Shown piece after piece: positions 722-19,161 of a stretch of DNA of 22,291 nucleotides. The stretch comes from a virus. How positions within the stretch are numbered: position 1 is the first letter of the stretch; each line of letters begins with the position of its first letter. The notes under the pieces were generated by a model. That model was not told where the DNA came from. It saw nothing but the letters and a program-made list of their open reading frames with translations, and did no database searches. The position numbers and the translations under genes are program-made. The DNA is taken from the IMG/VR virus record IMGVR_UViG_3300037010_000199, positions 1 through 22,291 of that record. One strand, given 5' to 3'.

Positions 722-1399
722 ATGTTCCAACCCACTAAAGTTAACGCCGATCTTGGCCAAAAAATTCACCAACACTTAATGAGCTTGGGGTTAGAAACCC
801 CACTGGCACCGAATCAATTCTCAACTATGGTTGACGATGAGCGAGTAGCATTTATTGAGTCTAAAATGACTGATGTTATGTTAGCACTTGGCTTAAACTT
901 AACAGACGACAGCTTAATCGATACACCTAAGCGCATTGCTAAGATGTTTGTATATGAAAAGTTCTGGGGACTTAAACCAGAGAACTTCCCAAAATGTACT
1001 GTTATCGACAACAAGATGAACTATGATGAAATGGTCACTGAGAAGAACATTACAGTTTTGAGCGATTGCGAACATCATTTCGTGCAAATTGACGGTAAGG
1101 CTCATGTATCATACATCCCCAATGCAAAAGTCTTAGGCTTGAGCAAATTAAATCGTGTTGTCGAATACTTTAGCCGTCGTCCACAAGTACAGGAACGCCT
1201 AACTCAACAAATTGGTGAAGCCTTAAAGTACATCTTAGGCACCGATGACGTTGCTGTAGTGATTAACGCTAAGCACTACTGTGTTATTTCACGTGGTGTT
1301 GAAGATCATGGCTCAGAAACAGTTACAAGCTATTTGAGTGGTCGTTACCGCGAGAGCCCAGACACACGGGCAGAGTTTTTTCGAACTTGTCAGGGTTAA
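722..1399 (+). CDS. folE: GTP cyclohydrolase I (FolE)
   Basis: FolE converts GTP to 7,8-dihydroneopterin triphosphate, the first step shared by folate and 7-deazaguanine synthesis. The 225-residue length matches bacterial FolE. Family signatures are in order: DTPKRIAKMF (about 67-76), SDCEHHF with zinc ligands C116 and H119 and the catalytic-position H118, AHVSYIPNAKVLGLSKL, the RRPQVQERLTQQI segment, and HYCVISRGVEDHGS with the third zinc ligand C187. All key residues are present, so the enzyme should be active. Start: ATG after a GGAGAT site. It has its own consensus promoter and its own terminator (1416-1445). A nearby DpdA-like gene and PTPS-like gene point to DNA-base synthesis, not folate supply. 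The first 40 residues are less conserved. Confidence 0.95.
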   Translation: MFQPTKVNADLGQKIHQHLMSLGLETPLAPNQFSTMVDDERVAFIESKMTDVMLALGLNLTDDSLIDTPKRIAKMFVYEKFWGLKPENFPKCTVIDNKMNYDEMVTEKNITVLSDCEHHFVQIDGKAHVSYIPNAKVLGLSKLNRVVEYFSRRPQVQERLTQQIGEALKYILGTDDVAVVINAKHYCVISRGVEDHGSETVTSYLSGRYRESPDTRAEFFRTCQG

Positions 1400-1415
1400 T
1401 TAGGATTGTTAACAC

Positions 1416-1445
1416 AAATGGGAGTCTTTGGCTCCCATTTTATTG
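1416..1445 (+). terminator. Rho-independent terminator after folE
   Basis: A 9-bp stem AAATGGGAG / CTCCCATTT (1416-1424, 1432-1440) with a 7-base loop TCTTTGG is followed by a short T/A run. It separates folE from the homing endonuclease gene starting at 1456. Confidence 0.75.
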
Positions 1446-1455
1446 AGTTTAATTT

Positions 1456-3069
1456 ATGTCAATCCTGACACCAAATGAAGTCTCAGAACTTATTAATCAA
1501 AACCCAAGAAACTACCCACAGTTAAAAGCAATTCGTGATACTATTGGGTATTTGGAATCAGTTCAGCCGGAACTAGACTACAAAGAAAGCCTTTATCTCT
1601 ATATCAACCAAATAAACGCAATACCCAAATGCGAGTGTGGGTTACCAATTAAATTTCGAAGTCTAAAATTCGGATACGGTGAGTGTCCAGATGCGAAATG
1701 CCCTCACCGTAAAAGAAGAAATACTGAGAAGATGAAACAAACCAACCTAGAGAGGTATGGTGTTGAATATCCACAGTCGACAGATGAATACAAAGATCAA
1801 GTTGAGCAAACTAACTTAGAGAAGTATGGCGTAAGAAACCAAAGCCAACGTAAAGAAGTTCAACAGAAAAAGATTCAAACCTGTCAAACCCTTTATGGTT
1901 ATGACTATGCTTCACAGTCACCCGAATTTAAGCAACGGGTAATGGATACTAACATTGATAGATATGGATGCTATGCTTCTGGTACAAGTGAGTTCCGGAG
2001 TAAAGTAGAAAACACTTGTCTAAACAGATATGGTGTTAAACATCCACAAATGAGTCCTACATTTCATCAGCAATCTAGACTTACATTCTGGATTAAGTTC
2101 TACGAAAGAAACAAAGATCAATTGAAGTTTACAGTTCAGAGCTTTGATAAAAGACTTGAAGCTGGTGATATTGTTACTTGTAAATCTTGCAACAACTCTT
2201 CTTCTTATCCCGAAACATATCAAAGCCCAATGAAATGGAGATGTCCTCATTGCGATCCAGTGATTAAAGGTGCATCTAGTTATGAGTTTGAGATTTTAGA
2301 ATATATTAACTCAAATTATCAGGGAGAAGTTATTCACGGAGATCGAAGTGTTCTTAAACCAAAAGAGCTTGACATTTGGGTTCCTAACTGTAAATTCTCA
2401 ATTGAATTTAATGGGACTTATTGGCACAGTGCAGACGAAGAAACAGATCAAACACAAAAGGTGAAACACCTCTGGAAAACTCAAAGGTGTAATGATCTCG
2501 GTATTACACTGTTTCATATTTGGGAACACGATTGGGTCGACCTGAGAAAACAACAGATATTGAAGTCAATGATACTATCCAAATTAAATCAAACTAATAA
2601 GGTCTTTGCAAAGAAAACAAGTATCACAAAGGTTAACCCCAAAGAAGCCAGTGACTTTTTAAATCAATGTCACTTAGAAGGCACAGTGCAGGGTATTCAC
2701 TATGGATTAAAGTTAGACAACAATCTAGTCGCAATAATGTCCTTTCAAACTATAAAGGGACAAATGACTCTACAGAGATACTGTAGTCGACTAGGTGTTA
2801 CAGTTGTGGGTGGTGCTACTAAGTTGTTTAATCACTTTAGAAGACAACATCGTGACTCGGTTCTAGCTTACATTGATCGTGAATTTTCAAATGGGGAACT
2901 CGCAAGGATACTGGGGTTCAATCTAATTGGTGTACAAAAACCCGACCATAAATGGTTTCGCAATGATACATTTACTAAGAAGGGCACCCCAAAAAAGATG
3001 TTCAGTGAGGGATATCTTAGAATTTGGTCTTGCGGGAAACTTGTCTTTAAGGTTGACAAGTTATCATAA
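1456..3069 (+). CDS. Free-standing EDxHD/Vsr-like homing endonuclease with zinc-binding and YGV repeats
   Basis: A 537-residue protein likely to cut a specific DNA site and copy its own gene into it. Order of parts: an N-terminal helical region ending in a cysteine motif (KCECG...GECPDAKCPH, about 58-84); five repeats of the type TNLERYGVEYPQS (about 95-200), a presumed DNA-binding repeat; a second zinc ribbon (CKSC...CPHC, about 235-265); the nuclease core ELDIWVP..KFSIEFNGTYWHS with downstream HIWEHDW, matching phage Vsr-like (EDxHD, I-Bth0305I type) endonucleases; and a C-terminal domain (YGLKLDNNLVAIMSF, VVGGATKLFNHF, YIDREFSNGELARILGF) typical of this family. It sits between folE and the T-fold gene and interrupts neither. 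I see no clear ribosome site in front of the start. Its last codons carry a possible -35 box for the next gene. Confidence 0.85.
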   Translation: MSILTPNEVSELINQNPRNYPQLKAIRDTIGYLESVQPELDYKESLYLYINQINAIPKCECGLPIKFRSLKFGYGECPDAKCPHRKRRNTEKMKQTNLERYGVEYPQSTDEYKDQVEQTNLEKYGVRNQSQRKEVQQKKIQTCQTLYGYDYASQSPEFKQRVMDTNIDRYGCYASGTSEFRSKVENTCLNRYGVKHPQMSPTFHQQSRLTFWIKFYERNKDQLKFTVQSFDKRLEAGDIVTCKSCNNSSSYPETYQSPMKWRCPHCDPVIKGASSYEFEILEYINSNYQGEVIHGDRSVLKPKELDIWVPNCKFSIEFNGTYWHSADEETDQTQKVKHLWKTQRCNDLGITLFHIWEHDWVDLRKQQILKSMILSKLNQTNKVFAKKTSITKVNPKEASDFLNQCHLEGTVQGIHYGLKLDNNLVAIMSFQTIKGQMTLQRYCSRLGVTVVGGATKLFNHFRRQHRDSVLAYIDREFSNGELARILGFNLIGVQKPDHKWFRNDTFTKKGTPKKMFSEGYLRIWSCGKLVFKVDKLS

Positions 3070-3081
3070 ATCAGTTAAACT
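3053..3081 (+). promoter_or_regulatory. Possible promoter for the PTPS-like/dpdA genes
   Basis: TTGACA at 3053-3058 lies in the last codons of the endonuclease gene. Seventeen bases later is TAAACT (3076-3081), a 4/6 match to the -10 consensus. It is weaker than the other promoters but is well placed, 35 bases before the ATG at 3117. Confidence 0.4.
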
Positions 3082-3116
3082 TACACAAGTTACATTACAC
3101 TACAAAAGGAACAGAC

Positions 3117-3482
3117 ATGACATACACAATATCACGCAAAATCTACATACGAACTCAGAAGGAAGGCATTCATCGTTACCCAGCTGCTGCAACAGACCCA
3201 AAGCTAAGCGCAGTCAGTTTCCTCGCAAATCCACACCGACACATCTTCCACTTTCATGTTGCCATCTCAGTAGAACACACTAATCGTGACTTAGAATTCA
3301 TCCTTGTTAAACGAAACATCGAAGACTGGCTAAGCACTGTTTACGATATTGACTATAAGAGTTGTGAGATGATGGCAGAAGACCTTTTACAATATCTACG
3401 TACATGCTATGGTGCTGAGCGACAATACACAATTGATGTCTCTGAAGACAACGAAAACGGAGCAGTAATCCAATGGAACTAA
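3117..3482 (+). CDS. PTPS/QueD-like T-fold protein (6-carboxytetrahydropterin synthase candidate)
   Basis: No family member matches outright, but the layout is that of a 6-pyruvoyl-tetrahydropterin synthase fold: EGIHRYP with H19, then HRHIFHFHV with H40 and H42 (the H...HxH zinc triad), DLEFILVKRNIEDWL where QueD has MVMDF..LK, CEMMAEDLLQYL where QueD has PTAENLA, and VSEDNENGAVIQW where QueD has V.ET....A.Y. At 121 residues it is QueD-sized. The catalytic cysteine that QueD carries between the first His and HxH is not seen; C82 lies elsewhere. QueD turns dihydroneopterin triphosphate into carboxytetrahydropterin, directly after FolE. ATG follows an AAAGGA ribosome site. The stop overlaps the dpdA start by 10 bases, so the two are probably translationally coupled. 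Confidence 0.65.
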   Translation: MTYTISRKIYIRTQKEGIHRYPAAATDPKLSAVSFLANPHRHIFHFHVAISVEHTNRDLEFILVKRNIEDWLSTVYDIDYKSCEMMAEDLLQYLRTCYGAERQYTIDVSEDNENGAVIQWN

Positions 3483-4741
3483 GTAAGCGCTTAGAGTATG
3501 TGTCATCTGGCAATAGCCATATTCGTATTAATCATTCGCCACAAGATACACCAGAGTATCGACAATACCTAAAAACAATTAATCATGCCTTTACTGAAAT
3601 GAATACAGGTAGCCATAATCACCATTATTCTTTGTTGTACAATGCCTACGTAGAAGCTGGTTTCGGTGAGATATTCCAGAACTATCGTGAAGGTGTTTAT
3701 AAGATTCACGCAGACTCGGGCGGTCTACAAGTAGTCACACAGGGATTATCAATTACTAACGAGCTCAAGACTAAAGTCTATCAAAACCAAGGCAAATGGG
3801 CTGATATTGGTATGAGCTTCGACGAAATCCCAGTAACACTAACTTCTCAACGATCAACTCGATTAGACTTTAGTAATCGATACTTTGATATTGATAAGTT
3901 CCACTCGAGCGCAACGCAAACTGGCTTAAACCTCAATGAGCAAATTAACTACTTCCGAGATAATAACAGTAACTGTAAACCATATCTAATCACTCAAGGT
4001 AATGACCTAGATACATACACTCAATGGGTAGAGATTATACTAGAGCAACTCGAAGGCGACAACTACAATTATATCGGAGGAGTTGCTATGGGGGCTGCAG
4101 CATTTGGAATGGGGACTTTAGAAGATATTAAGAAGAACTTCTTCTACTCAGAAATCTGTAAGCTGCTCCCTAACCGACACTTGCACTTGCTTGGGGTCGG
4201 ATCAATTTCTCGTTTGTTGCCTTCGCTAATCTTTATGAAGAATGGACGGTTTGATTCTGATGATCACCCAGCTCAAGTAAGCTATGATTCATCAACTCAC
4301 ACTAGTGGACAGAACTACGGAAGAGTTTATGATGAAGATATGAAGATTTGTAGCATGACTACACCGGCTGACTATGACCGTGCATATCAGTTGATTATTA
4401 AACAGTTCCCGTGGGCTGCTAACGAATTCACTTCGAGCCAATATCGTGATTTGTTATACTCTGCTTTTAAGGAAACCGAACCAGAAGATATCTACCGACG
4501 CTACCTTACTAAGAACTTAACTGGACTAACTGATATTAAAACATTCATTAGTCACGTTGATAGAGTTTATGATAACTTGGAAGTTGGACTAGAGTATATC
4601 TCTAATAAGCAAGAATACTACCCAATGAAGGCTTTATTTGGTGTTCGCTCAAAAGAAGATTACTATGAATGGGAAAAACAATATGCACAAGTCTTAACAT
4701 CTAAAGCATACCCAACCTGTAAACCAAACACATTATTCTAA
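3473..4741 (+). CDS. dpdA: DpdA-like DNA guanine transglycosylase
   Basis: A 422-residue member of the tRNA-guanine transglycosylase (TGT) superfamily. Visible motifs: IHADSGGLQ (79-86, the TGT DSGGFQ substrate-pocket motif with the presumed acid/base Asp81); WADIGMSFDEIPV (109-121, like TGT ADI.MAFDE); GGVAMGA (202-208); HLHLLGVGS (236-244, like TGT H.LGVG); and YDSSTHTSG (271-279), the likely site of the nucleophilic Asp272. The CxCxxC zinc motif of tRNA TGTs is absent. Phage DpdA proteins replace guanine in DNA with a 7-deazaguanine base and so block host restriction. Adjacent folE and a QueD-like gene support a DNA role. The ATG at 3473 lies inside the upstream gene, with a GGAG site about 10 bases before it. 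Confidence 0.85.
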   Translation: MELSKRLEYVSSGNSHIRINHSPQDTPEYRQYLKTINHAFTEMNTGSHNHHYSLLYNAYVEAGFGEIFQNYREGVYKIHADSGGLQVVTQGLSITNELKTKVYQNQGKWADIGMSFDEIPVTLTSQRSTRLDFSNRYFDIDKFHSSATQTGLNLNEQINYFRDNNSNCKPYLITQGNDLDTYTQWVEIILEQLEGDNYNYIGGVAMGAAAFGMGTLEDIKKNFFYSEICKLLPNRHLHLLGVGSISRLLPSLIFMKNGRFDSDDHPAQVSYDSSTHTSGQNYGRVYDEDMKICSMTTPADYDRAYQLIIKQFPWAANEFTSSQYRDLLYSAFKETEPEDIYRRYLTKNLTGLTDIKTFISHVDRVYDNLEVGLEYISNKQEYYPMKALFGVRSKEDYYEWEKQYAQVLTSKAYPTCKPNTLF

Positions 4742-4751
4742 GGATTGAACC

Positions 4752-5276
4752 ATGCTGAGACCATACACTGATAATATTGTTGTGAATACAGTTAGCTTCT
4801 TTGTTGGTACAGAAATTGAAAATACACCTTTTAAGGGGCAACGAACACTCTTCGTTGCTAACCCTATTAAGGATAATCAAGATCTGTTATACACCCAAAA
4901 ACAAATCAAAGAACTAACAGCACTCCACCAATGTGAACACATTTATTTGGGTGCCAACAAGTGGATTGAAACCAAAATCGACTTAACGTGGACAGTGTTA
5001 CTGTTGAAGGATATTGAGTGCAATGTTACCCTTGATCTACCATATCAACTCTACATTGAATCACACGAATTCCTAAATCGTAAATTAGCTACTATACCGA
5101 ATCTACACTATAACATCTCAGTAGAAATACCGAACTGTGCTGTTGGACAGATTACTGTAAAAGTTGATGACATTGGCTTCAACGCAACCAACCCAGGTGT
5201 TTGGTGCTACACTCCAACTCATAACGCAGCTGAGTTCACAGGGTGGGCAGACTATAGCAAAGATCAACCCATCTAG
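4752..5276 (+). CDS. Unknown 174-residue protein linked to dpdA
   Basis: I do not recognise a named family. The start is 10 bases after the dpdA stop with an AAGGA site, so it is co-transcribed. The N-terminal half reads VSFFVGTEIENTPFKGQRTLFV and HIYLGANKW, suggesting alternating strands and helices. The C-terminal half contains FNATNPGVWCYTP and FTGWADYSKD, a sharply patterned segment that looks conserved. Two cysteine pairs are too scattered to claim a metal site. Proteins with a similar FNATNPGVWC ending seem familiar to me from other phages carrying deazaguanine genes, but I could not check this. Position between dpdA and a glycosyltransferase suggests a role in base modification or substrate handling. 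Confidence 0.75.
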   Translation: MLRPYTDNIVVNTVSFFVGTEIENTPFKGQRTLFVANPIKDNQDLLYTQKQIKELTALHQCEHIYLGANKWIETKIDLTWTVLLLKDIECNVTLDLPYQLYIESHEFLNRKLATIPNLHYNISVEIPNCAVGQITVKVDDIGFNATNPGVWCYTPTHNAAEFTGWADYSKDQPI

Positions 5277-5278
5277 GG

Positions 5279-5307
5279 TTGACTTCTGCTATCTAAGGTG
5301 TTATAAT
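5279..5307 (+). promoter_or_regulatory. Sigma-70 promoter for the glycosyltransferase-uvsY operon
   Basis: TTGACT at 5279-5284, a 17-bp spacer and TATAAT at 5302-5307 with a TG extension. A perfect 7-bp inverted repeat TCAACCC / GGGTTGA (5264-5270 and 5276-5282) overlaps both the stop codon of the previous gene and the -35 box. No T-run follows, so this is better seen as a possible operator than as a terminator. Confidence 0.8.
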
Positions 5308-5336
5308 AACAACATTAAATCACAAAGGAACAAATA

Positions 5337-6521
5337 ATGCGCAAACTATACTACATGGGCCTAGAGAGTTACGAAGCTCGTTACACAATGCAACTCACTG
5401 ATTGGAACATGCGAGTGTTTAACAAGCGTGGACTTGATGTTGTTTGTGTGCCTGGATCTCAGCTAGATACAGATAGCAATGGCAAGATTGTAACAGGTCA
5501 AGTCTTAGATGCTCATAGTCGCAGTTACTTTAGCATGAGCCAATTGCTGAACCTTGTACAGTTGATGCAACAAGGTCAAGTAACATCTGATGATGTGATC
5601 TATTTTGAGGATATGTTCTCTCCGGGCATTGAGTCTTTGCCATATATCCTAAATCAAACCCCGAAACACCTTCAACCTAAAGTGTATGTTCGCTGCTTAG
5701 CACAAACAGTTGATCCAGATGACTTTGTTCACGTTTGGGGAATGAGCAAGTGGATGAGCTTGTATGAGCACATGGTGGGCGAGTTTGCTACAGTATTAGC
5801 AACAAATGAAGAAATGGTCGCTATGATGAAAGTAGCAGGTTGGACTGCCCCAATCTACAACATCAGTGGACTAGCATTTGGCAAAGAAGAAGTCCAAGAG
5901 CGTGTTGGGAATAAAATTCAACCATTCCAAGATCGCAAGATGCGGGTTGTGTTTGCTGCACGATGGGATCAAGAAAAGCAACCAGACTTCTACATGGATC
6001 TAATTGAACACTATATGCAATATGGTAAACATCGTGAGACTATTGAGTTTGCTATCCTGCAGGGCGGAACACTACGAAGCAATGATCAACGATATGTAGA
6101 TCGTGCTAAACAAATGCAGAGTGATAACTTGCTTACTATTCACGAAAACTTAAAAAAGAATGAATACTATGCAATCTTAAATGATAGCCGTGTAATGTTT
6201 AACTGTGCTCTACAAGATTGGGTGTCTAATACAGTGAGCGAAGCAGACGCACTCGGATGTAATGTACTATACCCAGCATACCGCAGCTTCCCAGAAACAT
6301 TTGCAAATGATCACGAAAGATTATATGTACCATGGTCTATGGAAGATGCCTTTAATAAACTAGAAGTATTACTAGAGAACCCACACAAGAACCAAGGTAA
6401 AATCTCAGATTGGACTAACGGTACAATTGATCGAGTTGTTGATATTATGTTAGGCGATGGCGAAGAATGGCTTCGCAACGGGAACCAATATCGTAATCAC
6501 TGTGCAACTGCAAAGTTCTAA
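5337..6521 (+). CDS. GT-B fold glycosyltransferase
   Basis: The 394-residue length and the C-terminal half fit GT4-like glycosyltransferases: MRVVFAARWDQEKQPDF (about 202-218, the usual strand-turn at the start of the donor domain), AILQGGTL, and WVSNTVSEADALGCNVLYP (about 293-311), which matches the EALA.G..V donor-binding motif. The N-terminal half (DDVIYFEDMFSPGIE) should bind the acceptor. Phage glycosyltransferases often decorate modified DNA bases; the neighbouring dpdA group makes a sugar on a deazaguanine, or on another base, a reasonable but unproven role. Capsid or cell-surface glycosylation is the alternative. Start: ATG with an AAAGGA site. It is first in the operon with uvsY. No signal peptide or membrane helix is seen, so it is cytoplasmic. 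Confidence 0.75.
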   Translation: MRKLYYMGLESYEARYTMQLTDWNMRVFNKRGLDVVCVPGSQLDTDSNGKIVTGQVLDAHSRSYFSMSQLLNLVQLMQQGQVTSDDVIYFEDMFSPGIESLPYILNQTPKHLQPKVYVRCLAQTVDPDDFVHVWGMSKWMSLYEHMVGEFATVLATNEEMVAMMKVAGWTAPIYNISGLAFGKEEVQERVGNKIQPFQDRKMRVVFAARWDQEKQPDFYMDLIEHYMQYGKHRETIEFAILQGGTLRSNDQRYVDRAKQMQSDNLLTIHENLKKNEYYAILNDSRVMFNCALQDWVSNTVSEADALGCNVLYPAYRSFPETFANDHERLYVPWSMEDAFNKLEVLLENPHKNQGKISDWTNGTIDRVVDIMLGDGEEWLRNGNQYRNHCATAKF

Positions 6522-8661: not shown

Positions 8662-9081
8662 ATGAAAAGCTTTAAAAACTATATGCTGGAAGCGAGTTTA
8701 ACACAAAACACTACCGAGATGATCTCTGCTAGAATCTTTAACATTTTAGAAATTGCAAATCAAATCCACTTGTTCCATTGGCTAACAACAGACCACAAAG
8801 TCCACGTTGCAATGAATGAACTCTTTGATGAACTTCGTGATCACGCAGATTCACTTGCCGAAGCGTGGATTGGACTAGGAAACACTGTAACAGTACCGAC
8901 TCCACAAGCAACTTTAGCTTCTGGGGATAAGAAACTGATTCAAAAGTACCTAGCAGATCAACTAGATATGATTAATCACTGTGTTGAGACTACTAACACA
9001 ACAGAGTTGATGAGTATGAATACCGTAATTGTTGATATCCAAGCAGATTTACAAAAAGCAATCTACTTAATCCGCGATTAA
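8662..9081 (+). CDS. Small ferritin-like protein (DUF5856-type)
   Basis: A 139-residue helical protein, last in the glycosyltransferase-uvsY-helicase run, with an AAGGA site 10 bases before its ATG. IANQIHLFHWLTTDHKVHVAMNELFDELRDHADSLAEAWIGLG (about 29-72) has the spacing of the Dps/ferritin four-helix bundle (H...W...H...L.E....D..AE), with possible metal ligands H39, H47, D58/D62 and E66. T4-like phages commonly carry such a gene, annotated as DUF5856 with no proven function. Iron storage or DNA protection is only inferred from the fold. The gene ends just before a strong terminator. Confidence 0.7.
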   Translation: MKSFKNYMLEASLTQNTTEMISARIFNILEIANQIHLFHWLTTDHKVHVAMNELFDELRDHADSLAEAWIGLGNTVTVPTPQATLASGDKKLIQKYLADQLDMINHCVETTNTTELMSMNTVIVDIQADLQKAIYLIRD

Positions 9082-9203: not shown

Positions 9204-12140
9204 ATGGCTTTAATGTCTCCTGGAGTTGAGATTCGCGAGTTCGATCTCAGCAACGTTACACCACAGGTCGGTTTGTCAGTTGGAGCTTTTGCTGGTGCAT
9301 TTACTTGGGGTCCTGTTATGGTCCCAACATTCTTAGCAAATGAATCAATGTTGATCGACACATTTGGTATTCCTAAAGTAGGATATAACCGTAAGGATTG
9401 GTACTCAGTATCTAAATTCTTGCAATCTAGCCCAGGTTGTTGGGTGACTCGTGTTGTTGGTCCTAACGCAGCAAACGCAGTAGCAACAGCAGATGGTTTA
9501 GCGAATGTATTGGGCAAAGAAGTGTTTATCCCTTCTGAGACATACTTCAACGAAACCTTTATTAACGGTGCACCTAAAGTTGGTACATCATATATTGGTG
9601 TTGCTACTCCTGCAACAGCAGCTCGTGGTGGTAGTGTAACTTATACACTTCCTTCAATGATCCGCATTAACGATCGCATTAAGTTTACAATCGGTACTGG
9701 TACAGAGCAAGTCTTTACAGTAGTAGATGAACGCAGCGTTGATGAGTTAATTGTTAGTATTAACGGCTCAACTGCAACTCAAGCATTAGTAGTTGCTTCT
9801 AAAGATTCTACTGGTAAACTTGTTTTAACAGCTAAAGATATTAGCGAAAACATGGTTGGCTCATACTCAACTGATGTTGCTACTGAAACTGCTGCTGTGA
9901 TTACTGCTCCTACTAGCGGTAATGGTGCAACTGGCGGTAAAGCTACTTTCGCTCTTCCTGTTACAATCCGTAATGGCGATAAGATCAAGTTCTCTGTGAA
10001 CGGTGGCGCTGACTTAATTTATACTACAACCGGCTCTTCAACTTTAGATTCTATTGTTACTGCAATTAACGCTGATACCGACTTAAACGCTTTAGTAACT
10101 GCTTCTAGTGTTTCAGGTGCTCTTGTGTTGACTACTGTATCTACTACAGCTACTATCACTGGTTATTATGCGTCTAAAGCTGCAACTGAAATCCCAGGTG
10201 TTGCTGTTGCACTACAAACTGCATTGTCAGGTTCTGTGTTGATTGAAATGCCTACAGTTGGTGCATATGATGTGCTCGACTTCCAGTTGAATGTTGAAGG
10301 CAAAGACTTCGGCACTCACTTCTATATTGAAGTAGAAGCTCAGACTTCAATTGCTGATGTGATCGCTACTATTAACGAAGATGCTCGTATGACTGCTTCT
10401 GTAACAGCAGCAGAAGTTGGCGGTAAGTTGAAGTTAACAGCAGTTGATACCCTTAAAGGTGTTAAAGGTACTTTCCAAGATAATATCCCAGGTCACCCAG
10501 TTGATTTCATTGCAAAATACCCAGGCTCACTAGGTAACGGTATTGAAGTTCACATCTTAGATACCTTCTCTTTTGGCACTAGCCCATACGCTCCTATCTT
10601 TGATGGCGCGCCAAGCGGCACTGAAGTACACGTGGTTATCGCTAAAGACGGCGAAATCTTAGAACGCTACGACTTCCTAAACACACTTGAAGGCACTCGC
10701 AAGATTGATGGCACTAAGGCTTACTATGTTGATGTCTTAAACGAAATGTCTAAGTATGTTTACATTACTAACCCATGTGGTGCTTGTTCAGTATTGTTAC
10801 GCGGTGGCACACTAGGCGCTACTTTCGCTCAATACGGCTCAATCAATGACCCAATGAACTTAGCTGCTCCTGCAATGCCATTGGCTCGTAGCTTGTACCC
10901 AGCAACTGGTAACGGTGTTCGCATTGTGATCGTTGATCGTAACAACTACTCAACTCAAACTGCAAACATTAAAACAGCTCTAGACACTGAAGTTGGCGGC
11001 GGCGCTGGGTCAGGTCAACCAGGCTTTGACGGTGTTGCTATTGTTGTGTTTGAAGGTCCTTATATCCGCGAAACTCACGTTGATATGGTGAAGGATTGGA
11101 ACTCTGTAGACTACTTCGTGAATAAGTTCAACGCTGTTTCTGCATACGCTGACTTGCTAGATGTTGACTCTCCTACTGCTACATACCCTGTAGACTTTAC
11201 AAAGGCTGCGATGCTTGACTTCACGCTAACTGGCGCTACTCGTGACTTACACCCTCAAAACTTCCCAGGCTACGAAAATGTCCAGATTGATGGATACGAC
11301 GCTATGAAAGACTTTGAGACTTACGACTACGGTATGCTGATCCAAGGCGCGGCTTCAAACTTCGTTGGTAGCTACTTGGTTGAACTTGCTGAAATCCGTA
11401 AATTCACAGTTGCTTTTGTAAGCCCACAATATGACTCAGTGAAACAAGGTGGCTCAGCTTCATTGGCTAAAGTCCTTAATGATCGTCAACAAATGTACTC
11501 TGTAAGCTACGGCTATATGGATTCAAACTGGGCTATGGTATACGATCGCTTTAATAAGACGACTTTCTGGATGCCCATGAACCCAATCACCGCAGCTCTA
11601 AACGCTAAGGTTGAGTCTGACCGCTTTGCTTGGTATGTTGGTTATGGTTTCAATTACGGTAAGATTGCTGGTATTGTTAAGTTGGCTTGGGAACAACCAC
11701 AAGGCATTCGCGATGAACTGTATAAGTCTCAAGTTAACCCAGTTACGACTTTCCGCAACGAAGGTCCTACTGTATTCGGCTCTAAGACTTTACAAGCTAA
11801 ACCAAGTGCATTTGATAGATTGAACGTTCGTCGTTTGTTTATCTACTGTGAATTAGCAATTAGCAGAACAATGAAATACTACATTGGCGAATTGAACACT
11901 CCACAGACTCGTTTACGTGTTCTGAATACAGTTGCTCCATTCTTACGTGATGTACAGTCTAAGCAAGGTGTTTATGACTTCTTCTTACGCTGTGATGAGA
12001 AAAACAACACTCCTTACGTGATTGATACAAATCAGTTAGCGTTGGATGTTGCACTTAAACCATCTCGTGTAATTGACTTCGTGAGCTTATCATTCTACGC
12101 TGTACCAACTGGCGTTGAGTTTAGCGAAGTGTTCCAATAA
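9204..12140 (+). CDS. 18: Contractile tail sheath protein (gp18-like) with three inserted tandem domains
   Basis: The 978-residue protein is the main contractile component of a myovirus tail. The N-terminus (MSPGVEIREFDLS, GAFAGAFTWGPVMVP, IDTFGIP, WYSVSKFLQ) and C-terminus (FNKTTFWMPMNP, ISRTMKYYIGELNTP, FLRDVQSKQGVYDFFLRCDE, DVALKPSRVIDFVSLSF) carry gp18-family signatures. T4 gp18 has 659 residues; the excess is largely accounted for by about 300 residues (roughly 133-430) made of three repeats of about 100 residues, each with a strand pair, NGDKIKFSVN-type turn, SLDSIVTAIN-type helix and GKLVLTA-type strand. Core sheath sequence resumes at KYPGSLGNGIEVHI. ATG follows GAGG. The repeats should lie on the outer face of the tail, as an inference from gp18 insertion domains. 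Confidence 0.93.
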   Translation: MALMSPGVEIREFDLSNVTPQVGLSVGAFAGAFTWGPVMVPTFLANESMLIDTFGIPKVGYNRKDWYSVSKFLQSSPGCWVTRVVGPNAANAVATADGLANVLGKEVFIPSETYFNETFINGAPKVGTSYIGVATPATAARGGSVTYTLPSMIRINDRIKFTIGTGTEQVFTVVDERSVDELIVSINGSTATQALVVASKDSTGKLVLTAKDISENMVGSYSTDVATETAAVITAPTSGNGATGGKATFALPVTIRNGDKIKFSVNGGADLIYTTTGSSTLDSIVTAINADTDLNALVTASSVSGALVLTTVSTTATITGYYASKAATEIPGVAVALQTALSGSVLIEMPTVGAYDVLDFQLNVEGKDFGTHFYIEVEAQTSIADVIATINEDARMTASVTAAEVGGKLKLTAVDTLKGVKGTFQDNIPGHPVDFIAKYPGSLGNGIEVHILDTFSFGTSPYAPIFDGAPSGTEVHVVIAKDGEILERYDFLNTLEGTRKIDGTKAYYVDVLNEMSKYVYITNPCGACSVLLRGGTLGATFAQYGSINDPMNLAAPAMPLARSLYPATGNGVRIVIVDRNNYSTQTANIKTALDTEVGGGAGSGQPGFDGVAIVVFEGPYIRETHVDMVKDWNSVDYFVNKFNAVSAYADLLDVDSPTATYPVDFTKAAMLDFTLTGATRDLHPQNFPGYENVQIDGYDAMKDFETYDYGMLIQGAASNFVGSYLVELAEIRKFTVAFVSPQYDSVKQGGSASLAKVLNDRQQMYSVSYGYMDSNWAMVYDRFNKTTFWMPMNPITAALNAKVESDRFAWYVGYGFNYGKIAGIVKLAWEQPQGIRDELYKSQVNPVTTFRNEGPTVFGSKTLQAKPSAFDRLNVRRLFIYCELAISRTMKYYIGELNTPQTRLRVLNTVAPFLRDVQSKQGVYDFFLRCDEKNNTPYVIDTNQLALDVALKPSRVIDFVSLSFYAVPTGVEFSEVFQ
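9600..10493 (+). repeat. Three tandem protein-domain repeats inside the sheath gene
   Basis: Sheath residues about 133-228, 231-330 and 334-430 align with each other: each has a hydrophobic strand, a turn (NDRIKFTI, NGDKIKFSVN, YDVLDFQLN), a helix (SVDELIVSIN, TLDSIVTAIN, SIADVIATIN) and a strand (GKLVLTAKD, GALVLTTVS, GKLKLTAVD). The pattern resembles the IN motif of flagellar hook and filament-cap proteins. DNA identity between copies is modest, so the duplication is not recent. Confidence 0.75.
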
Positions 12141-12271: not shown

Positions 12272-12305
12272 TCGATGCTACTAACAATAAACAAGGATGT
12301 CTACT

Positions 12306-13589
12306 ATGCGCAATCATGCACTAAACATCTATGGCGTAAATCCAATTCAGCCTTCATCACCAGACTCCAAATATCACTATGTCTACCGTATTACTAACCT
12401 AGCAACTCAAAAACACTACTACGGTAAAAGAAGCTCAGTAAATCACCCTTACAATGATCTAGGGACAAGATACTTCTCAAGTAGCTCAAAGAAAGAATTC
12501 ATACAAGAACAAAAGTCCAACCCTCACAACTTCAAGTATAAAGTAGTCGGTGTCTATACCACATCTGAACAAGCACTACAAACAGAAGTAAAACTCCACG
12601 CAAAATTCAATGTATCTGAGAACCAATCCTTCCTAAACATTGCTAGACAAACAACATCAACATTCAAACCAATTGGACTAAACTTAGCAAAGAACTCAGT
12701 TACTGGGGAATATATTGGTCCAGTTTCTAAAAGCGACTCAAGATGGGCTAGTGGGGAAATAGTAAACATACAAAGAGGAACAAGAAATGCAGTCTGCTCA
12801 ACTACCCACAGGAAATTAGGTAAAGTAGACACTAACGACTCAAGATGGAATACTGGAGAGATACTATGTGAGCAAGTTGGGGCAACCCAAGCTATTTGTT
12901 CAAAAACTAAAGAATATCTTGGGTTTATTTCTATAGATGATCCTAGATGGAATACTGGAGAAATAGTACACATTAATAAAGGAATGATTACTGCTTACTG
13001 TTCTAAGACCAATCAAAGTTTAGGTAAAGTTCACCTCAATGATCCTAGATGGAATACTGGAGAGATCTACAACAACTACTGCAAGACAGCATCTGCATTT
13101 TGTGCAAAGACCAATCAGAGTCTAGGTAGAGTTAGTGTTGAAGATCCTAGATGGAATACTGGGGAGATTTGTGGGACAACTAAAAATCAAAAGTTGTTGT
13201 CTGCTTCTGCAATTGAAGTCACATCTGGCAAGAAACTTAAAAAGGTTCCAATTGATGACACTAGATGGTCTACAGGAGAAATCATTGAACATAGATCACC
13301 ATATGCTCGGATTACTAATGGAATAGAAGAACGAACTTATAAAGTTGATGGTTCCGATACTATACCCGAAGGCTGGTGGGTTAGCTTTTCTACTGTGATT
13401 CTAGCAGACATTTACTGTGCGGATGGCACCCTAGTTGCACACTCAGTTCATCCAAAATCATTTCAACCTAGAATCCTACCTAATGCAAAGAACCCCAATG
13501 GACTCACTATCACTATTAACCGTAATAGTATCTATCAAGGTTACTACGCAAAGAACCCTAAAACCGTCTACACTGCGACTTCTATCTAA
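12306..13589 (+). CDS. GIY-YIG homing endonuclease with six DxRWxTGEI repeats
   Basis: A 427-residue protein. The nuclease domain spans about 20-115: YHYVYRITNLATQKHYYGKRSS (variant GIY...YYG), DLGTRYFSSSS, FKYKVVGVY, EVKLHAKFNV and NIARQT. Behind it stand six copies of a roughly 35-residue repeat beginning DxRWxTGEI and ending with a CSKTNQSLGKV-type strand, a likely extended DNA-reading tail. I prefer the ATG at 12306 over the one at 12297 because the AAGGA site (12293-12297) is 8 bases before it and overlaps the first ATG. The N-terminus closely matches the minus-strand GIY-YIG gene at 15734-17134. The last nine codons and the stop lie inside a palindromic repeat element, so the gene's end may be a later addition. 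Confidence 0.85.
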   Translation: MRNHALNIYGVNPIQPSSPDSKYHYVYRITNLATQKHYYGKRSSVNHPYNDLGTRYFSSSSKKEFIQEQKSNPHNFKYKVVGVYTTSEQALQTEVKLHAKFNVSENQSFLNIARQTTSTFKPIGLNLAKNSVTGEYIGPVSKSDSRWASGEIVNIQRGTRNAVCSTTHRKLGKVDTNDSRWNTGEILCEQVGATQAICSKTKEYLGFISIDDPRWNTGEIVHINKGMITAYCSKTNQSLGKVHLNDPRWNTGEIYNNYCKTASAFCAKTNQSLGRVSVEDPRWNTGEICGTTKNQKLLSASAIEVTSGKKLKKVPIDDTRWSTGEIIEHRSPYARITNGIEERTYKVDGSDTIPEGWWVSFSTVILADIYCADGTLVAHSVHPKSFQPRILPNAKNPNGLTITINRNSIYQGYYAKNPKTVYTATSI

Positions 13590-14005: not shown

Positions 14006-15718
14006 TTAAAGTTGAGTTGTGGCTGTTCTATTAACTTGTGTAATGTCTAGTTGTAAGTGAACCCACCCAGTATCCCATATTCTTCTCCAACCCTCACTGA
14101 ACATCTGACCCTCACCTAAACCAAAATCTGGAACAAATGACTGCTTCCTCCACCAGATGAATTTGGGTAACGTGTAGAAGATAGGAACAAACCCAACCAA
14201 AACCTCTTCACTTATACTGAAATATGATCGATTTAGTTTACAGTGTAACAAGCCCTCATAGTTCTCACTCAAATGGTTTATGAACTTGTTCAACCCACCA
14301 ATAATCTCAAAACCATTAAGCTTAGTATATGAATCTATGGTTAAGTCATTATTAGTATGTGAAATAGATAAGACACCAACCAACTCATTATCTAACTTCA
14401 GACCATAGTAAGCATCGGATTTAATATTACCTAGAATTGAATTACTACAGTTGAACACACTAGCTTCTTGTTCATCAAGTTCACAAACAACACAATCATC
14501 TGCTTGGATATTCTCAGCGACTCTAAGCTCTCTTTGAATAATAGACTTAATCACTTCACGTTTAATAGGATCGGCCCAATCTTGCTCAAAGACATGCAGA
14601 AGATGAATCCCCTTTTCGTTGCACATGTTAGTCTTGTTTAGGTGCTTGTATCTAAATCCAAGGTCCTTATCCTTTTCTGAGTCGGCACTATGCCAATAGA
14701 ACCCATTGAACTCAACTGCGAAGGAAGCACTTGGAACATAGATGTCTAATTCTAAAGGAGCAATGATCTTCTTGTTTGATTGATAAACTTCACCAGAATA
14801 AATTGATTGAATATACTCAAAGACTTCATCCTCCCCGCGAGATGTTCCAAACCTAGGTGGATCACAAACCCAACATCTCCAACTTAAAGGGCCATTGGAT
14901 TGCCAATATTCACTTTTACTCCCACAGGTCTTACAAGTAACTGTATCACCGAAGACTGGTTTCCTGCTTGGATCCGTGATCCAAAACTTTAGATTTGACT
15001 TGTTCCTCTTGAAATAAGTTTCCCAATTTGATTGCTGATTACGATTAGCAACCTCTTGGGTTTGTACTGGATAAGCTACACCATATCTCTCTAGGTTAGT
15101 AGACTCAAACTTCTCCTTATGCCGCTGTATTCGATACTCACACTTTAAATTGCTACACTCACCAAATCCATTATTTGCACCTCTAAAGGACAAGTCTCTC
15201 CCACATTCACATTTCGGAATCTCTTGTAGATGATTGATGTATAGATACAACTGAACTGATATTTGATTGACTCTAGCATAATACACTTTAAGATGCCGAA
15301 ATGTAGATCTAAGTTCTTTAAGTTGATAGACACCCTTACCATGTTGATCATAGAGGAGTCTTAATTCCTCCGGTGAAACAATATCACTATTAACGTCTTG
15401 TTCTATGGTCTTTTGTCGTTTAGATCTAGACTGCTCTCTTTGATGTTTGCAGCCTTTAACTGGGCATCTCGTATAACCAACAGCGATGCTACTAAAAGTG
15501 AGTTTTGAACCACAGTTGCAATAGCTTGGCTCTTGTTGATTAATGTAAAGATATAACAGCTCACTCGCAGACTCAATATACGGATACTGAATTCTTAGAT
15601 GAGATATTAGACTTTGAACTCTAGCTAACTTGGTTAGGTTTTTGGGATAAGCATTACTGAGGTCTTGTACCTCTTGAGGGGATAGATTTTCAGACTGATA
15701 ATTACATTTGTTGCACAT
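14006..15718 (-). CDS. EDxHD/Vsr-like homing endonuclease with duplicated zinc domain
   Basis: A 570-residue relative of the endonuclease at 1456-3069. The N-terminal helical-plus-cysteine unit is present twice (ending YCNCG...CPVKGCKH, about 72-97, and KCECG...CSNLKCEY, about 168-194); only one TNLERYGV repeat follows, against five in the other copy. Then come a zinc ribbon (CKTCG...CWVC), the nuclease core LELDIYVP..SFAVEFNGFYWHS with HVFEQDW (EHDW in the other copy), and the family C-terminal domain (YGLKLDNELVGVLSI, IIGGLNKFINHL, MFSEGWRRIWDTGWV). The C-terminal DRR/S.G segment is degenerate here (CKLNRSYFS), so activity is less certain. Start: ATG with an AAGGAA site, 15 bases after the stop of the GIY-YIG gene upstream, so the two form one minus-strand unit. 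Confidence 0.85.
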   Translation of the reverse strand: MCNKCNYQSENLSPQEVQDLSNAYPKNLTKLARVQSLISHLRIQYPYIESASELLYLYINQQEPSYCNCGSKLTFSSIAVGYTRCPVKGCKHQREQSRSKRQKTIEQDVNSDIVSPEELRLLYDQHGKGVYQLKELRSTFRHLKVYYARVNQISVQLYLYINHLQEIPKCECGRDLSFRGANNGFGECSNLKCEYRIQRHKEKFESTNLERYGVAYPVQTQEVANRNQQSNWETYFKRNKSNLKFWITDPSRKPVFGDTVTCKTCGSKSEYWQSNGPLSWRCWVCDPPRFGTSRGEDEVFEYIQSIYSGEVYQSNKKIIAPLELDIYVPSASFAVEFNGFYWHSADSEKDKDLGFRYKHLNKTNMCNEKGIHLLHVFEQDWADPIKREVIKSIIQRELRVAENIQADDCVVCELDEQEASVFNCSNSILGNIKSDAYYGLKLDNELVGVLSISHTNNDLTIDSYTKLNGFEIIGGLNKFINHLSENYEGLLHCKLNRSYFSISEEVLVGFVPIFYTLPKFIWWRKQSFVPDFGLGEGQMFSEGWRRIWDTGWVHLQLDITQVNRTATTQL

Positions 15719-15733
15719 GGCATTTCCTTGATG

Positions 15734-17134
15734 TTACTTAGAATGTGTAAGGCCTCTTCCTCTGTTTAGTAACCTACCTCGGACCCATCCTTGATCTAGA
15801 TAAGATTGGATCTCACTAGATTTAACACGGAGCTCTTCGTTTGTTATGTGATTTGAGACGTAAGATGTCCCTTTAACCTTCGATGTGAAATTCTTTCTAC
15901 CCTTAACCCATCCAGCTGGAACTTCTCCTAAATCTGTAAAGAGTTTACATTCTAAACTGATAGGGTTAGTATAATATGTACCGGAAACACTTCTACCTGG
16001 AACCCATCCTTTGGGAATATCTTCATCTGGATAGAACTTTGTTGACTCATTGGTCTCTGGATTATAGAACCAATTTAATATAGTCCCTTGACCTTGAACC
16101 CATCCATCCGGTATAATATCATCTTCTGAAAACATTCTCGATTTGAGTGTGTTTGGGTTGTGATACTTTTTCAATCCAGATGGACCCGTGCCACGAACCC
16201 AACCTTCTGGTGCCTCATCGTAGAACTTGCCAGTCTCTTTCGTTGCTGGATTGTGCCACCACTCAAAACTATCAACACCCATCCCACGAACCCAGCCTTC
16301 AGGTGTAGTATCAGAGTTAATAATTGCCCTCTCTTTTGTTGCAGGATTGTGCCACCATTCCCCATTTAAGTCTAAACGCCCAGAGATCCAGCCTTCGGGA
16401 ACTGTTTCACCTGAGAAGATTCTTCTTGTTTGTTTAGTAATTGGGTCTGAGTACCAAGAGAAGTCTACACCCATTCCCACGATCCATCCTTTGGGTATTT
16501 CAGCATCTGGATAGAACTTACGATACTCTTTTGTTGCTGGATTGTGCCAGAAATTCATTCCCTTAATAAACCCAGGATTTGCTTCTAACTCATCGTTAGC
16601 GGAATCATTGTATACTAAGCTGACTTGTCTATTATGAGAATCAAAGTACCACTTTGCACCACGACCCTTAACCCAGCCCTCTGGGATGACATCATCCGGA
16701 CTAAATCTGCCACTAATTTTAGTTTCGGGATTGTGATACCAGAATTTGCCACTAACCATAGGGATAAATCCACTAGAGGTTTGATTTGCTAGGTTATAAA
16801 AGCTTTCATTAAATGCAACATTAAAAATACGATGTAGTTTGACTTCTAAATCATAAGCCTTTGCCCTTTTATCAAAACACTGAACTACCTTGTAAGTATA
16901 GTCCTCGGGATTATTGATTTGGTCTTTACGAAAACTTTCATCAGTTGAGGATGATCTATACCAAATACCTAAATCTTTGTGGGGGTGTATATTGGATGTT
17001 CTAGACCCATAGTAGTGCTTATTGGTTACTAGGTTAGTGATGCGATAGACATAATGATACTTGTTGTCTAGTGTACTGGGTTGGGTTGGATTAGCACCAT
17101 AGATTTTTGGCGCATAAGTAGCTGTGTTGCTCAT
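15734..17134 (-). CDS. GIY-YIG homing endonuclease with about nine HNPxT...PxGW repeats
   Basis: A 466-residue protein. I chose the ATG at 17134 (MSNTATYAPKIYGAN) because a GAAGGA site lies just before it; an upstream in-frame ATG at 17197 adds 21 residues with no ribosome site. The nuclease domain (YHYVYRITNLVTNKHYYGSRTS, DLGIWYRSSST, EVKLHRIFNV, NLANQT) is very close to that of the 12306-13589 gene, starting from the same KIYGxNPxQPS leader. The tail is different: about nine repeats of roughly 30 residues, W(Y/W)HNPxTxxxxxF....(I/V)PxGWxxGxG, ending in a degenerate copy. The repeats probably read DNA along the homing site. It lies just past the tail tube terminator. Confidence 0.85.
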   Translation of the reverse strand: MSNTATYAPKIYGANPTQPSTLDNKYHYVYRITNLVTNKHYYGSRTSNIHPHKDLGIWYRSSSTDESFRKDQINNPEDYTYKVVQCFDKRAKAYDLEVKLHRIFNVAFNESFYNLANQTSSGFIPMVSGKFWYHNPETKISGRFSPDDVIPEGWVKGRGAKWYFDSHNRQVSLVYNDSANDELEANPGFIKGMNFWHNPATKEYRKFYPDAEIPKGWIVGMGVDFSWYSDPITKQTRRIFSGETVPEGWISGRLDLNGEWWHNPATKERAIINSDTTPEGWVRGMGVDSFEWWHNPATKETGKFYDEAPEGWVRGTGPSGLKKYHNPNTLKSRMFSEDDIIPDGWVQGQGTILNWFYNPETNESTKFYPDEDIPKGWVPGRSVSGTYYTNPISLECKLFTDLGEVPAGWVKGRKNFTSKVKGTSYVSNHITNEELRVKSSEIQSYLDQGWVRGRLLNRGRGLTHSK

Positions 17135-17225
17135 ATTGAGTCCTTCAATTGTTAGAATGAGTAAAGCCAGTAGATGGTGGTACATCGTGACTGGCACTTT
17201 TTATTTATTACGAACACACAGTCAC

Positions 17226-17269: not shown

Positions 17270-17782
17270 TTACTTGATACGCTTGAACGAACTGTACGAG
17301 AACACCATTGGGCACTCTGCGATGCTGTTGTTAGAATCCCATGCTAAGCTAACTTCACCAACAGAATTTGGGAAAAGGTGATAAAACTCATATTGAGCAT
17401 CTTCGGTGCCATCTCTACTGTATGTTGACACCGTGGCGGTAATCATATGATCCTTGACAGACGCCTTTTGTGTAACGTTCGTTTGACGACCGTTAATTGC
17501 TTCCATCCAGTCTTCAAAAGTTTTGCGAGACTTCAGCCCCTCATCTAGAATTACAGTAACATTCCAGTCTGCAAATTCCTGATCTCCCGGGACTTTAAAT
17601 TGACGTCCCATATAAGGTAGTGTCACAGTAGGGATAGTAACCGCCGGTAGCGAAGCAGCCTTTGCTTTAAACGCCAAGTTCTCTGAGTCACCGTAAGGTG
17701 ATTTAATTTCAACCGTAAACAAGTTAGGGCGCATACCACCCTTAGCGAGTTCGCCAATAAATGAATCCAAGTCCATTGCCAT
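17270..17782 (-). CDS. 19: Tail tube protein (gp19-like)
   Basis: The 170-residue protein forms the inner tail tube through which DNA passes. It follows T4 gp19 closely in length and plan: GGMRPNLFTVEI (T4 FARPNLFQVEI), AFKAKAASLPA (CKATALPA), MGRQFKVPGDQEFADWNVTVI (NRKINVAGDRTFDDWTVTV), FEDWMEAI, and the ending LFPNSVGEVSLAWDSNNSI (LWPTNVGELQLDWDSNNEI). Start: first ATG of MAMDLD, 8 bases after GAGG. In T4 the sheath and tube genes are adjacent and co-directional; here the tube is on the opposite strand, about 5 kb from the sheath, with homing endonuclease genes on both sides. A GATAAATA box lies upstream. Confidence 0.92.
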   Translation of the reverse strand: MAMDLDSFIGELAKGGMRPNLFTVEIKSPYGDSENLAFKAKAASLPAVTIPTVTLPYMGRQFKVPGDQEFADWNVTVILDEGLKSRKTFEDWMEAINGRQTNVTQKASVKDHMITATVSTYSRDGTEDAQYEFYHLFPNSVGEVSLAWDSNNSIAECPMVFSYSSFKRIK

Positions 17783-17917: not shown

Positions 17918-19147
17918 CTAGTTCAATCTAACCGCCAACCAGCCCATCAGTTCCCCATATTTTGACTTTTGTTTAAAATCAATTCTCTGATGAGTTCTAG
18001 CAGACTCTAGGAACAGTCTAGGGGGATATCCGTGTTCCTTGCACCATGAGTTTAGTGAGCAAGTCAAGCTAACCACCAGTTCGTCCTGACTGTTATAGAT
18101 TGCGTAGAGTCCGAGTGAGCCGTTCTCGAGCTTCTTCTGGTGTTCTTGCTGTTTTGCAATCTTTCTAGTCTGTGTTCGGAGATCTTCAGCCCAGTCTGCT
18201 ACAAAGACATCCGGTGTTCCCATCAGTTCGTTTAGTAGCAAGTTATAGTGCAGCTCAGTATCTAGGGGTTCTTTAGACACTGTTTCACCAGTTGGTGTCA
18301 TGCCATCTTTTAGCAGTTTAGTAAGCTGTCTAACAGTCAACTGTAGATGTTTGCGGAGGAAGCGTCTAGTTCCAATGCAGTAAACTGTTTGGTTTGCTGA
18401 GAAGCTAACTTGTCGTGTTGAGTCAATGTGGTCTACAACACAGACCTTTCTGCTCAGGAGGTCAAAGATAAACTGCTTGTTCTTGTTGTGGGATTCCTTT
18501 GTCCAGCCATCTGGGATTGGGAGATCTTGTGGGTGACGTTTGAACACACCACTCTTGGTGCATTTGATTGACACTGTGCCTTTGCTTGGGCTGAAGATCC
18601 CCCAGTCTGGGTGAGGCAGGTCTCGGTCAAAGAACTTGATCTCTTTTGTGCTGGGGTCAATCAATGCAACCTTGCCTAGCTTTGGGCCGTGTTTGATGAA
18701 GCCATCTGGGATTGGTTGATCTTGTGGGATGTAGGTCCTGATGTTTGTTTCGACGTTGAGGATGCTTGTGTGGCCCACATGACAGAATTTCAATCCATCG
18801 TTTGAGTTCCTTGCGCGATTGAGGAACAGTGGGTTTTTGTGAACGTTGAACATCTCGTGAAGCTGGTTCTCGTGGTTGAGTGCTTCTGCGTGACTCTCCC
18901 ATGCACTCAGGATGTGATGAGTGAAGACTTCTGGGTGTTGCTGTTGTTCTTTGATGAAGAGTTTGTTTGATGAAGAGCTGAAGTAGACCACACCTAGATC
19001 AAAGTGTGGCGTTGTCTTCTTGCTAGTGCGGCAACCAATGTAGGCAACACAGTCTCGGTGGTTGATGATGATGTATGTGTATGATTTTAGACTTGTAGAA
19101 AGGATTTCGTTGTTGTGGACCCAGTTGATCAGATCATTGAAATCCAT
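17918..19147 (-). CDS. GIY-YIG homing endonuclease between two tail genes
   Basis: A 409-residue protein from the ATG at 19147 (MDFNDLINW); a longer reading from a TTG at 19195 would overlap the upstream tail gene. The GIY-YIG domain has YTYIIINHRDCVAYIGCRTS, DLGVVYFSSSS, NQLHEMFNV and LNRARN, sharing the DLG..Y.SSSS block with the other two GIY-YIG proteins but otherwise distant. The middle has short copies of (I)PxxxPIPDGW-type repeats. The C-terminal part, VVSLTCSLNSWCKEHGYPPRLFLESARTH, resembles a helix-turn-helix specificity module (NUMOD-like). By eye the gene is more GC-rich than the tail genes around it, suggesting recent arrival from another genome. The ribosome site is poor, so it may rely on coupling to the tail gene that ends 14 bases upstream. 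Confidence 0.8.
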   Translation of the reverse strand: MDFNDLINWVHNNEILSTSLKSYTYIIINHRDCVAYIGCRTSKKTTPHFDLGVVYFSSSSNKLFIKEQQQHPEVFTHHILSAWESHAEALNHENQLHEMFNVHKNPLFLNRARNSNDGLKFCHVGHTSILNVETNIRTYIPQDQPIPDGFIKHGPKLGKVALIDPSTKEIKFFDRDLPHPDWGIFSPSKGTVSIKCTKSGVFKRHPQDLPIPDGWTKESHNKNKQFIFDLLSRKVCVVDHIDSTRQVSFSANQTVYCIGTRRFLRKHLQLTVRQLTKLLKDGMTPTGETVSKEPLDTELHYNLLLNELMGTPDVFVADWAEDLRTQTRKIAKQQEHQKKLENGSLGLYAIYNSQDELVVSLTCSLNSWCKEHGYPPRLFLESARTHQRIDFKQKSKYGELMGWLAVRLN

Positions 19148-19161
19148 GAAATTCCATCTTG

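Follow-up and report, generated by a model that had tools for sequence, protein, structure and literature searches.

Glycosyltransferase genes linked to a DpdA2-type transglycosylase in phages without QueC: a candidate route to glycosylated 7-deazaguanine in DNA

What do the clustered genes at positions 722 to 6521 of a T4-like phage fragment make, and does a sugar-bearing base in DNA come of it? The window analyzed here is the whole of a 22,291-base IMG/VR fragment (IMGVR_UViG_3300037010_000199), so that gene absences in it apply to this fragment only. Its UvsY, UvsW-type helicase, tail sheath and tail tube genes, identified by Pfam and phrog matches, give it the character of a T4-like myophage. 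From homology and gene content, the locus is probably part of a phage pathway that exchanges guanines in DNA for a glycosylated 7-deazaguanine. An earlier note on this DNA had listed five open reading frames (ORFs), and all five were confirmed in place on the + strand:

722..1399, + strand: folE, GTP cyclohydrolase I, 225 amino acids (aa); Pfam GTP_cyclohydroI PF01227, E=1.3e-58; NCBIfam FolE, 302 bits against a cut-off of 202
3117..3482, + strand: T121, a PTPS-like T-fold protein, 121 aa; phrog_17812, E=1.2e-32; weak match to QueD phrog_2389, E=0.008
3473..4741, + strand: putative DpdA2-type DNA guanine transglycosylase, 422 aa; phrog_10773, E=4e-86; homology to nt-1 DpdA2
4752..5276, + strand: u174, of no known family, 174 aa; at least 591 IMG/VR relatives
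5337..6521, + strand: GT-B glycosyltransferase (GT), predicted to be retaining and GT4-like, 394 aa; Pfam PF13524 Glyco_trans_1_2, 26.0 bits against a cut-off of 25 (marginal)

Four scans of IMG/VR were performed with the GT, u174, DpdA2 and T121 genes as queries. Each scan covered the 80 loci most like its query and is hence a non-random sample, the u174 scan being the widest (30-38% identity), and linkage was counted only where the contig reached 5 kb or more beyond the query gene in both directions. With GT as the query, dpdA, T121 and folE were each detected in 40/40 loci and u174 in 37/40. The u174 scan gave 41/42 for each of dpdA, T121 and GT, and the DpdA2 scan gave 37/37 for each of T121, GT, folE and queE. 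With T121, dpdA was found in 36/36 loci and GT in 30/36; the six GT-less loci carry another small TGT-like gene. The gene orders were shuffled (DuTG, DTG, gDTG, TGDu, DGuT and uDGT), and all the cluster genes pointed in the same direction in 282/282 loci with at least three of the genes. Thus, the linkage is not mere inherited synteny. Among isolates, the set is carried by ACP17, BUCT-ZZ01 (without u174), PA5oct and its relatives, Xanthomonas phage X1 and Sinorhizobium phage Phosso; both PA5oct and Paride, which carry it, are P. aeruginosa phages. These results show that GT, T121 and DpdA form one genetic unit with FolE, QueD and QueE, without QueC. The earlier note had assigned the GT to a deazaguanine DNA-modification pathway and had named a GT found without dpdA in related phages as evidence to the contrary. 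No such case occurred among the adequately long GT loci, and the assignment is strongly supported by the genomic linkage.

Two further genes were observed in these neighborhoods. A phosphoribosyltransferase-like gene recurs in the clusters (53/80 loci of the DpdA2 scan and 30/79 of the u174 scan; for example, L002 10093-10554), and it might serve the salvage of guanine released by DpdA. A conserved ORF of about 187 aa lies between dpdA2 and T121 in loci of the cyanophage type (L185 11266-11832 and L232 11263-11823); on visual inspection, it looks similar to the pyrimidine-dimer glycosylases found in T4-like phages.

QueE, QueD and QueC are absent within the 22-kb fragment, and relatives of the window carry folE, queD and queE. 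QueC (PF06508) was missing in 22/22 of the module records first searched, which include the complete BUCT-ZZ01, ACP17 and PA5oct genomes and contigs of up to 352 kb, and the KVP40 positive control was matched. In later T121-bearing records, QueC matches were only weak or partial (D479, X1 and one contig). Phages outside this group frequently do encode QueC: the KVP40 QueC query matches 319 records. Among phages with DpdA2, KVP40 and pf16 possess queC and lack T121 and GT, whereas BUCT-ZZ01 and ACP17 possess T121 and GT and lack queC. nt-1 also has queC; on one DpdA2 contig, L184, a weak queC-like gene was seen, and T121 and GT are both missing. T121 and GT thus appear to replace the QueC branch, with 7-carboxy-7-deazaguanine (CDG) as the starting point. 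The earlier remark that queE and queC are missing from the window is correct for both genes. It needs to be extended for queC, which is not merely outside the fragment but absent even in complete relatives; queE does occur in relatives. The gene set would explain why many phages keep FolE-QueD-QueE without QueC.

The window DpdA-like protein had no match in Pfam or NCBIfam. A homologue in Vibrio phage nt-1, YP_008125322 (38% identity over 280 aa, E=6e-52), is the protein named DpdA2 by Hutinet et al. 2019 (PMC6884629). Conserved in the window protein are DSGGLQ (81-86), FDEIP (116-120) and YDSxTHT (271-277), and the first and last of these motifs are invariant across the DpdA2 proteins of the window, nt-1, BUCT-ZZ01 and X1. 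The two-Asp TGT-type catalytic motifs are thus found, with catalytic roles that we assign by analogy. Because of the identity to nt-1 DpdA2 and the invariant TGT-like motifs, we file the 422-aa protein as a predicted DpdA2, and the transglycosylase of the earlier note stands under this narrower name. In nt-1 virion DNA, dPreQ0, dADG and dG+ were detected at low levels (PMC6884629). By homology to DpdA2, DNA would be the target of the whole unit.

By BLAST, DpdA seemed to be missing from the large-phage loci (0/80). This idea was rejected, because a second TGT-like family is present there, with 522 aa and a DSGGFQ motif, and aligns with DpdA2 by profile comparison (probability 94). The family lies beside u174 in 75/80 of these loci. 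DpdA2 was not found in Stenotrophomonas phage DLP_6, which was intended as a contrast genome. No credible PDB match came from profile-based sequence searches for u174, T121, GT or DpdA2.

The earlier note had read T121 as a QueD-like T-fold gene, and this reading had to be revised. T121 gave no PF01242 (QueD/PTPS) match in Pfam, and its match to a phage QueD profile (probability 67, E=5e-5) is confined to the C-terminal half. H19, H40, H42, E60, E84 and E110 are invariant in the T121 family. The three histidines and the C-terminal Glu are thereby retained, all invariant, while the Cys of C-x3-HGY and the Asp-His (DH) pair, both catalytic features invariant in phage QueD, are absent. Furthermore, a separate true QueD gene is present in BUCT-ZZ01, ACP17 and the large phages, and QueD was found in 18/23 records. 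The identification of T121 with QueD was rejected on these grounds, and the sequence comparison indicates a T-fold relative distinct from QueD.

T121 was found in 77/80 GT-scan loci. It also occurs without GT or u174 in Cellulophaga phage phiST, Chryseobacterium phage MA9V-3, Vibrio phage D479 and Aeromonas phage Ahp1. Its partner in these GT-less phages is a protein of 260-290 aa with TGT-like motifs, accompanied in some by a kinase-like gene. Since T121 occurs near a TGT-like protein without any GT, it would act upstream of the sugar step and independently of it. Examples of the small TGT-like protein near T121 (phrog_20335 in phiST) are at L168 9804-10583, L174 9809-10603, L173 9683-10540 and L176 9417-10289. 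Profile comparison links these proteins (from phiST and others) to DpdA only weakly (probability 24), which makes the kinship no more than a lead. Cui et al. 2023 reportedly described 2'-deoxy-7-carboxy-7-deazaguanine and 2'-deoxy-7-deazaguanine in phages together with a proposed CDG decarboxylase, DpdL. That system is said to resemble the present one in having no QueC, and it is not known to include a glycosyltransferase. As a lead, and not as a result, the T121 homologue of phiST might be DpdL.

The GT-B assignment, which we retain together with that of FolE, draws on the marginal Pfam match and on structure. The AlphaFold model of the GT (pLDDT 83.7) matched sucrose-phosphate synthase, MshA, BshA and SenB in PDB by Foldseek (probability 1.00, E to 2e-12). 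R209, K214, E302 and E320 are invariant over 21 GT sequences with identities down to 19%. The model therefore indicates a retaining, GT4-like enzyme of the GT-B fold with conserved donor-site Arg, Lys and Glu, and the roles of these catalytic or donor-site residues are suggested by analogy with GT4 enzymes. The family has at least 600 IMG/VR relatives. Two GT classes occupy the same locus position, with scores near 700 and near 130 bits, and they could transfer different sugars. Downstream of the GT in the large phages come genes for an NAD-dependent epimerase (Pfam E=1.2e-54) and a short DegT-type aminotransferase-like protein, joined in some cases by a GT2-like gene. In BUCT-ZZ01, a second GT-B-type gene abuts dpdA. 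The neighborhood of the GT in large-phage relatives consists of DNA replication genes (polB and clamp), not tail or capsid genes.

The 174-aa gene that had been noted as of no recognized kind proved to be so: u174 had no match in Pfam, in NCBIfam or in PDB, either by sequence or by fold (Foldseek), and a Foldseek search of BFVD with its model returned the ACP17 homologue alone. The AlphaFold model is confident (mean pLDDT 87.6). G19, E21, E23, T32, N69, K137, D140, N147, GVW149-151, T163, W165, Y168 and D171 are invariant. Thus, u174 is a new protein family, genuine and widespread. Two exceptions in its distribution were observed. In PA5oct, u174 lies about 27 kb from dpdA-GT-T121 (L005 9986-10492; L169 6227-9372), outside the usual tight clustering, and L124 5269-5778 is the sole long-flank u174 contig with no dpdA, T121 or GT nearby.

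From these components, the following pathway can be proposed. FolE, whose assigned role would be the first step from GTP toward CDG, would make CDG together with QueD and QueE, the last two encoded outside the fragment. In the absence of a phage QueC, the usual preQ0 nitrile would not be made by the phage. T121 would remodel CDG, and our first guess is a decarboxylation to 7-deazaguanine. DpdA2 would then swap guanine in DNA for the base produced by T121, and the GT-B enzyme would move a sugar from a nucleotide sugar onto that base in DNA. In some of the phages, DpdA or the GT would have u174 as a helper. What T121 does, which base is inserted, which sugar is added and to which atom, and in what order the steps run are all inferred. 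Least certain is the sugar on the DNA base, for which the linkage to dpdA is the evidence: if plain 7-deazaguanine is what T121 makes, there is no obvious acceptor chemistry. The interpretation of the earlier note, taken as a whole, is thus partly supported.

There is about an even chance that these phages form a large class (hundreds of IMG/VR contigs, and PA5oct, Paride, ACP17, BUCT-ZZ01, X1 and Phosso) with the first glycosylated guanine in DNA, made without a phage QueC via T121, DpdA and the GT-B enzyme, and with u174 as a new family specific to the pathway. Sugar-bearing bases in phage DNA are known on hydroxymethylated pyrimidines. The literature searched, which misses most subscription papers, contained no description of a sugar-bearing deazaguanine in DNA. 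A sugar on guanine, if true, would open a new class of hypermodified bases and would matter for restriction, CRISPR and the way environmental phage DNA is sequenced. In public data, the gene set is frequent but mostly labelled hypothetical, and at least two protein families without an assigned function, T121 and u174, are hereby defined.

Several points weigh against a glycosylated deazaguanine in the DNA of these phages. Plain 7-deazaguanine has no hydroxyl for a sugar; therefore, T121 would have to make something else, u174 would have to add a handle, or the bond would be unusual. GT-B folds take many acceptors, and the GT sequence names no DNA acceptor. GT-bearing phages are often without u174 (BUCT-ZZ01, X1 and Phosso). 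The modification in nt-1 is only a trace, about 0.1% of G or less (PMC6884629), and given this level the activity of DpdA2 could be low. Finally, a host QueC could convert the phage CDG to preQ0. If so, ordinary dPreQ0 or dADG would be in the DNA, with T121, u174 and GT as accessories. QueC is present in most bacteria, and the QueC model matched 12/14 control genomes. We nevertheless judge this outcome very unlikely, for queC is absent in all 22 first records and nearly all later ones in spite of the many records that the KVP40 query can match, and T121 stands in the place of queC in three different DpdA contexts.

The sugar could also end up elsewhere. If the DNA contained an unglycosylated deazaguanine (CDG or the T121 product), the GT would glycosylate something else, such as a protein or a host surface molecule; T121 without GT in phiST, MA9V-3, D479 and Ahp1 agrees with this, as does the frequency of surface-glycan GT-B enzymes in phages. 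A surface GT, however, would be expected sometimes without dpdA, and 0/40 such loci were observed. The GT was beside dpdA in every one of the 37 adequately sampled DpdA2-scan loci, with the order reshuffled, and in the large phages it is inside replication neighborhoods, so that we regard a separate target of the GT as unlikely. Rather more doubtful is a reversed order, in which a free deazaguanine base or nucleotide is glycosylated before DpdA inserts the sugar-bearing base. Gene linkage does not fix the order of the steps, and the association of T121 with a small TGT-like gene without GT suggests a base built stepwise. However, TGT-type pockets are narrow, and the known hypermodified guanines (archaeosine, queuosine and, in tRNA, mannosyl- and galactosyl-queuosine) receive their further groups once the base has been inserted (PMC12518689 for the sugars). 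Least probable of these explanations is RNA as the target, with the TGT-like protein and the GT acting on tRNA to produce a sugar-bearing deazaguanine akin to those two queuosine forms. DpdA does belong to the TGT superfamily, and animal tRNA has sugar-bearing queuosine (PMC12518689), but the window DpdA resembles nt-1 DpdA2, whose virion DNA holds the modified nucleosides given above (PMC6884629), and the neighbors of the cluster in relatives are genes for DNA polymerase and clamp.

As for the layout of the locus, T121 and dpdA overlap by 10 bases, and the gaps are 10 bases between dpdA and u174 and 60 bases between u174 and GT. Thus, these four genes look co-transcribed, as judged from their spacing. 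folE of the window is 62-64% identical to KVP40 and ACP17 folE, where folE adjoins dpdA. The five listed genes are indeed co-directional, as the earlier note had it, but one more ORF, which it did not list, lies between folE and T121:

1456..3069, + strand: homing endonuclease, 537 aa; phrog_3339 homing endonuclease, E=5.7e-93

Since BUCT-ZZ01 and ACP17, the nearest isolates, are without a homing endonuclease at the equivalent place, this gene is an insertion outside the pathway. Altogether, five homing-endonuclease-like ORFs are present in 18 kb of the window, the others being at 12297-13589 (+), 14006-15718 (-), 15734-17197 (-) and 17918-19195 (-). Two of the GIY-YIG type contain internal peptide repeats (DPRWNTGEI; HNPATKE). 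Two tail-tube-like ORFs (17270-17782 and 19162-19995, -) flank a homing endonuclease. The tail sheath (9204-12140, +) is unusually long, with 978 aa, and a Ferritin/Dps-like ORF (8662-9081, +; DUF5856, E=2.9e-10) lies between the helicase and tail sheath genes.

Among known systems, the DpdA2 system of nt-1 and KVP40 (PMC6884629) is like the window in that folE lies next to a DpdA2-family transglycosylase gene in T4-like phages. nt-1, KVP40 and pf16 carry queC, and KVP40 and pf16 also a QueF-type gene, whereas the relatives of the window are without queC and add T121, GT and often u174; T121 and GT are both missing in KVP40 and pf16. In T-even phages, the alpha- and beta-GT of T4 glucosylate hydroxymethylcytosine in DNA (PMC13216743). 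As proposed here, a phage GT puts a sugar on a modified DNA base after replication, but that base is hydroxymethylcytosine in T4 and would be a deazaguanine in the present phages. Retaining GT4/GT5 enzymes such as MshA, BshA and sucrose-phosphate synthase are the best structural matches of the window GT, and the best matches listed include no T4 GT. Mannosyl- and galactosyl-queuosine occur in animal tRNA (PMC12518689). They resemble the proposed product in bearing a sugar on a 7-deazaguanine base placed by an enzyme of the TGT superfamily. They differ from it in that the nucleic acid is tRNA and the sugar is attached to queuosine's cyclopentene, a moiety that none of the genes seen in the window would produce.

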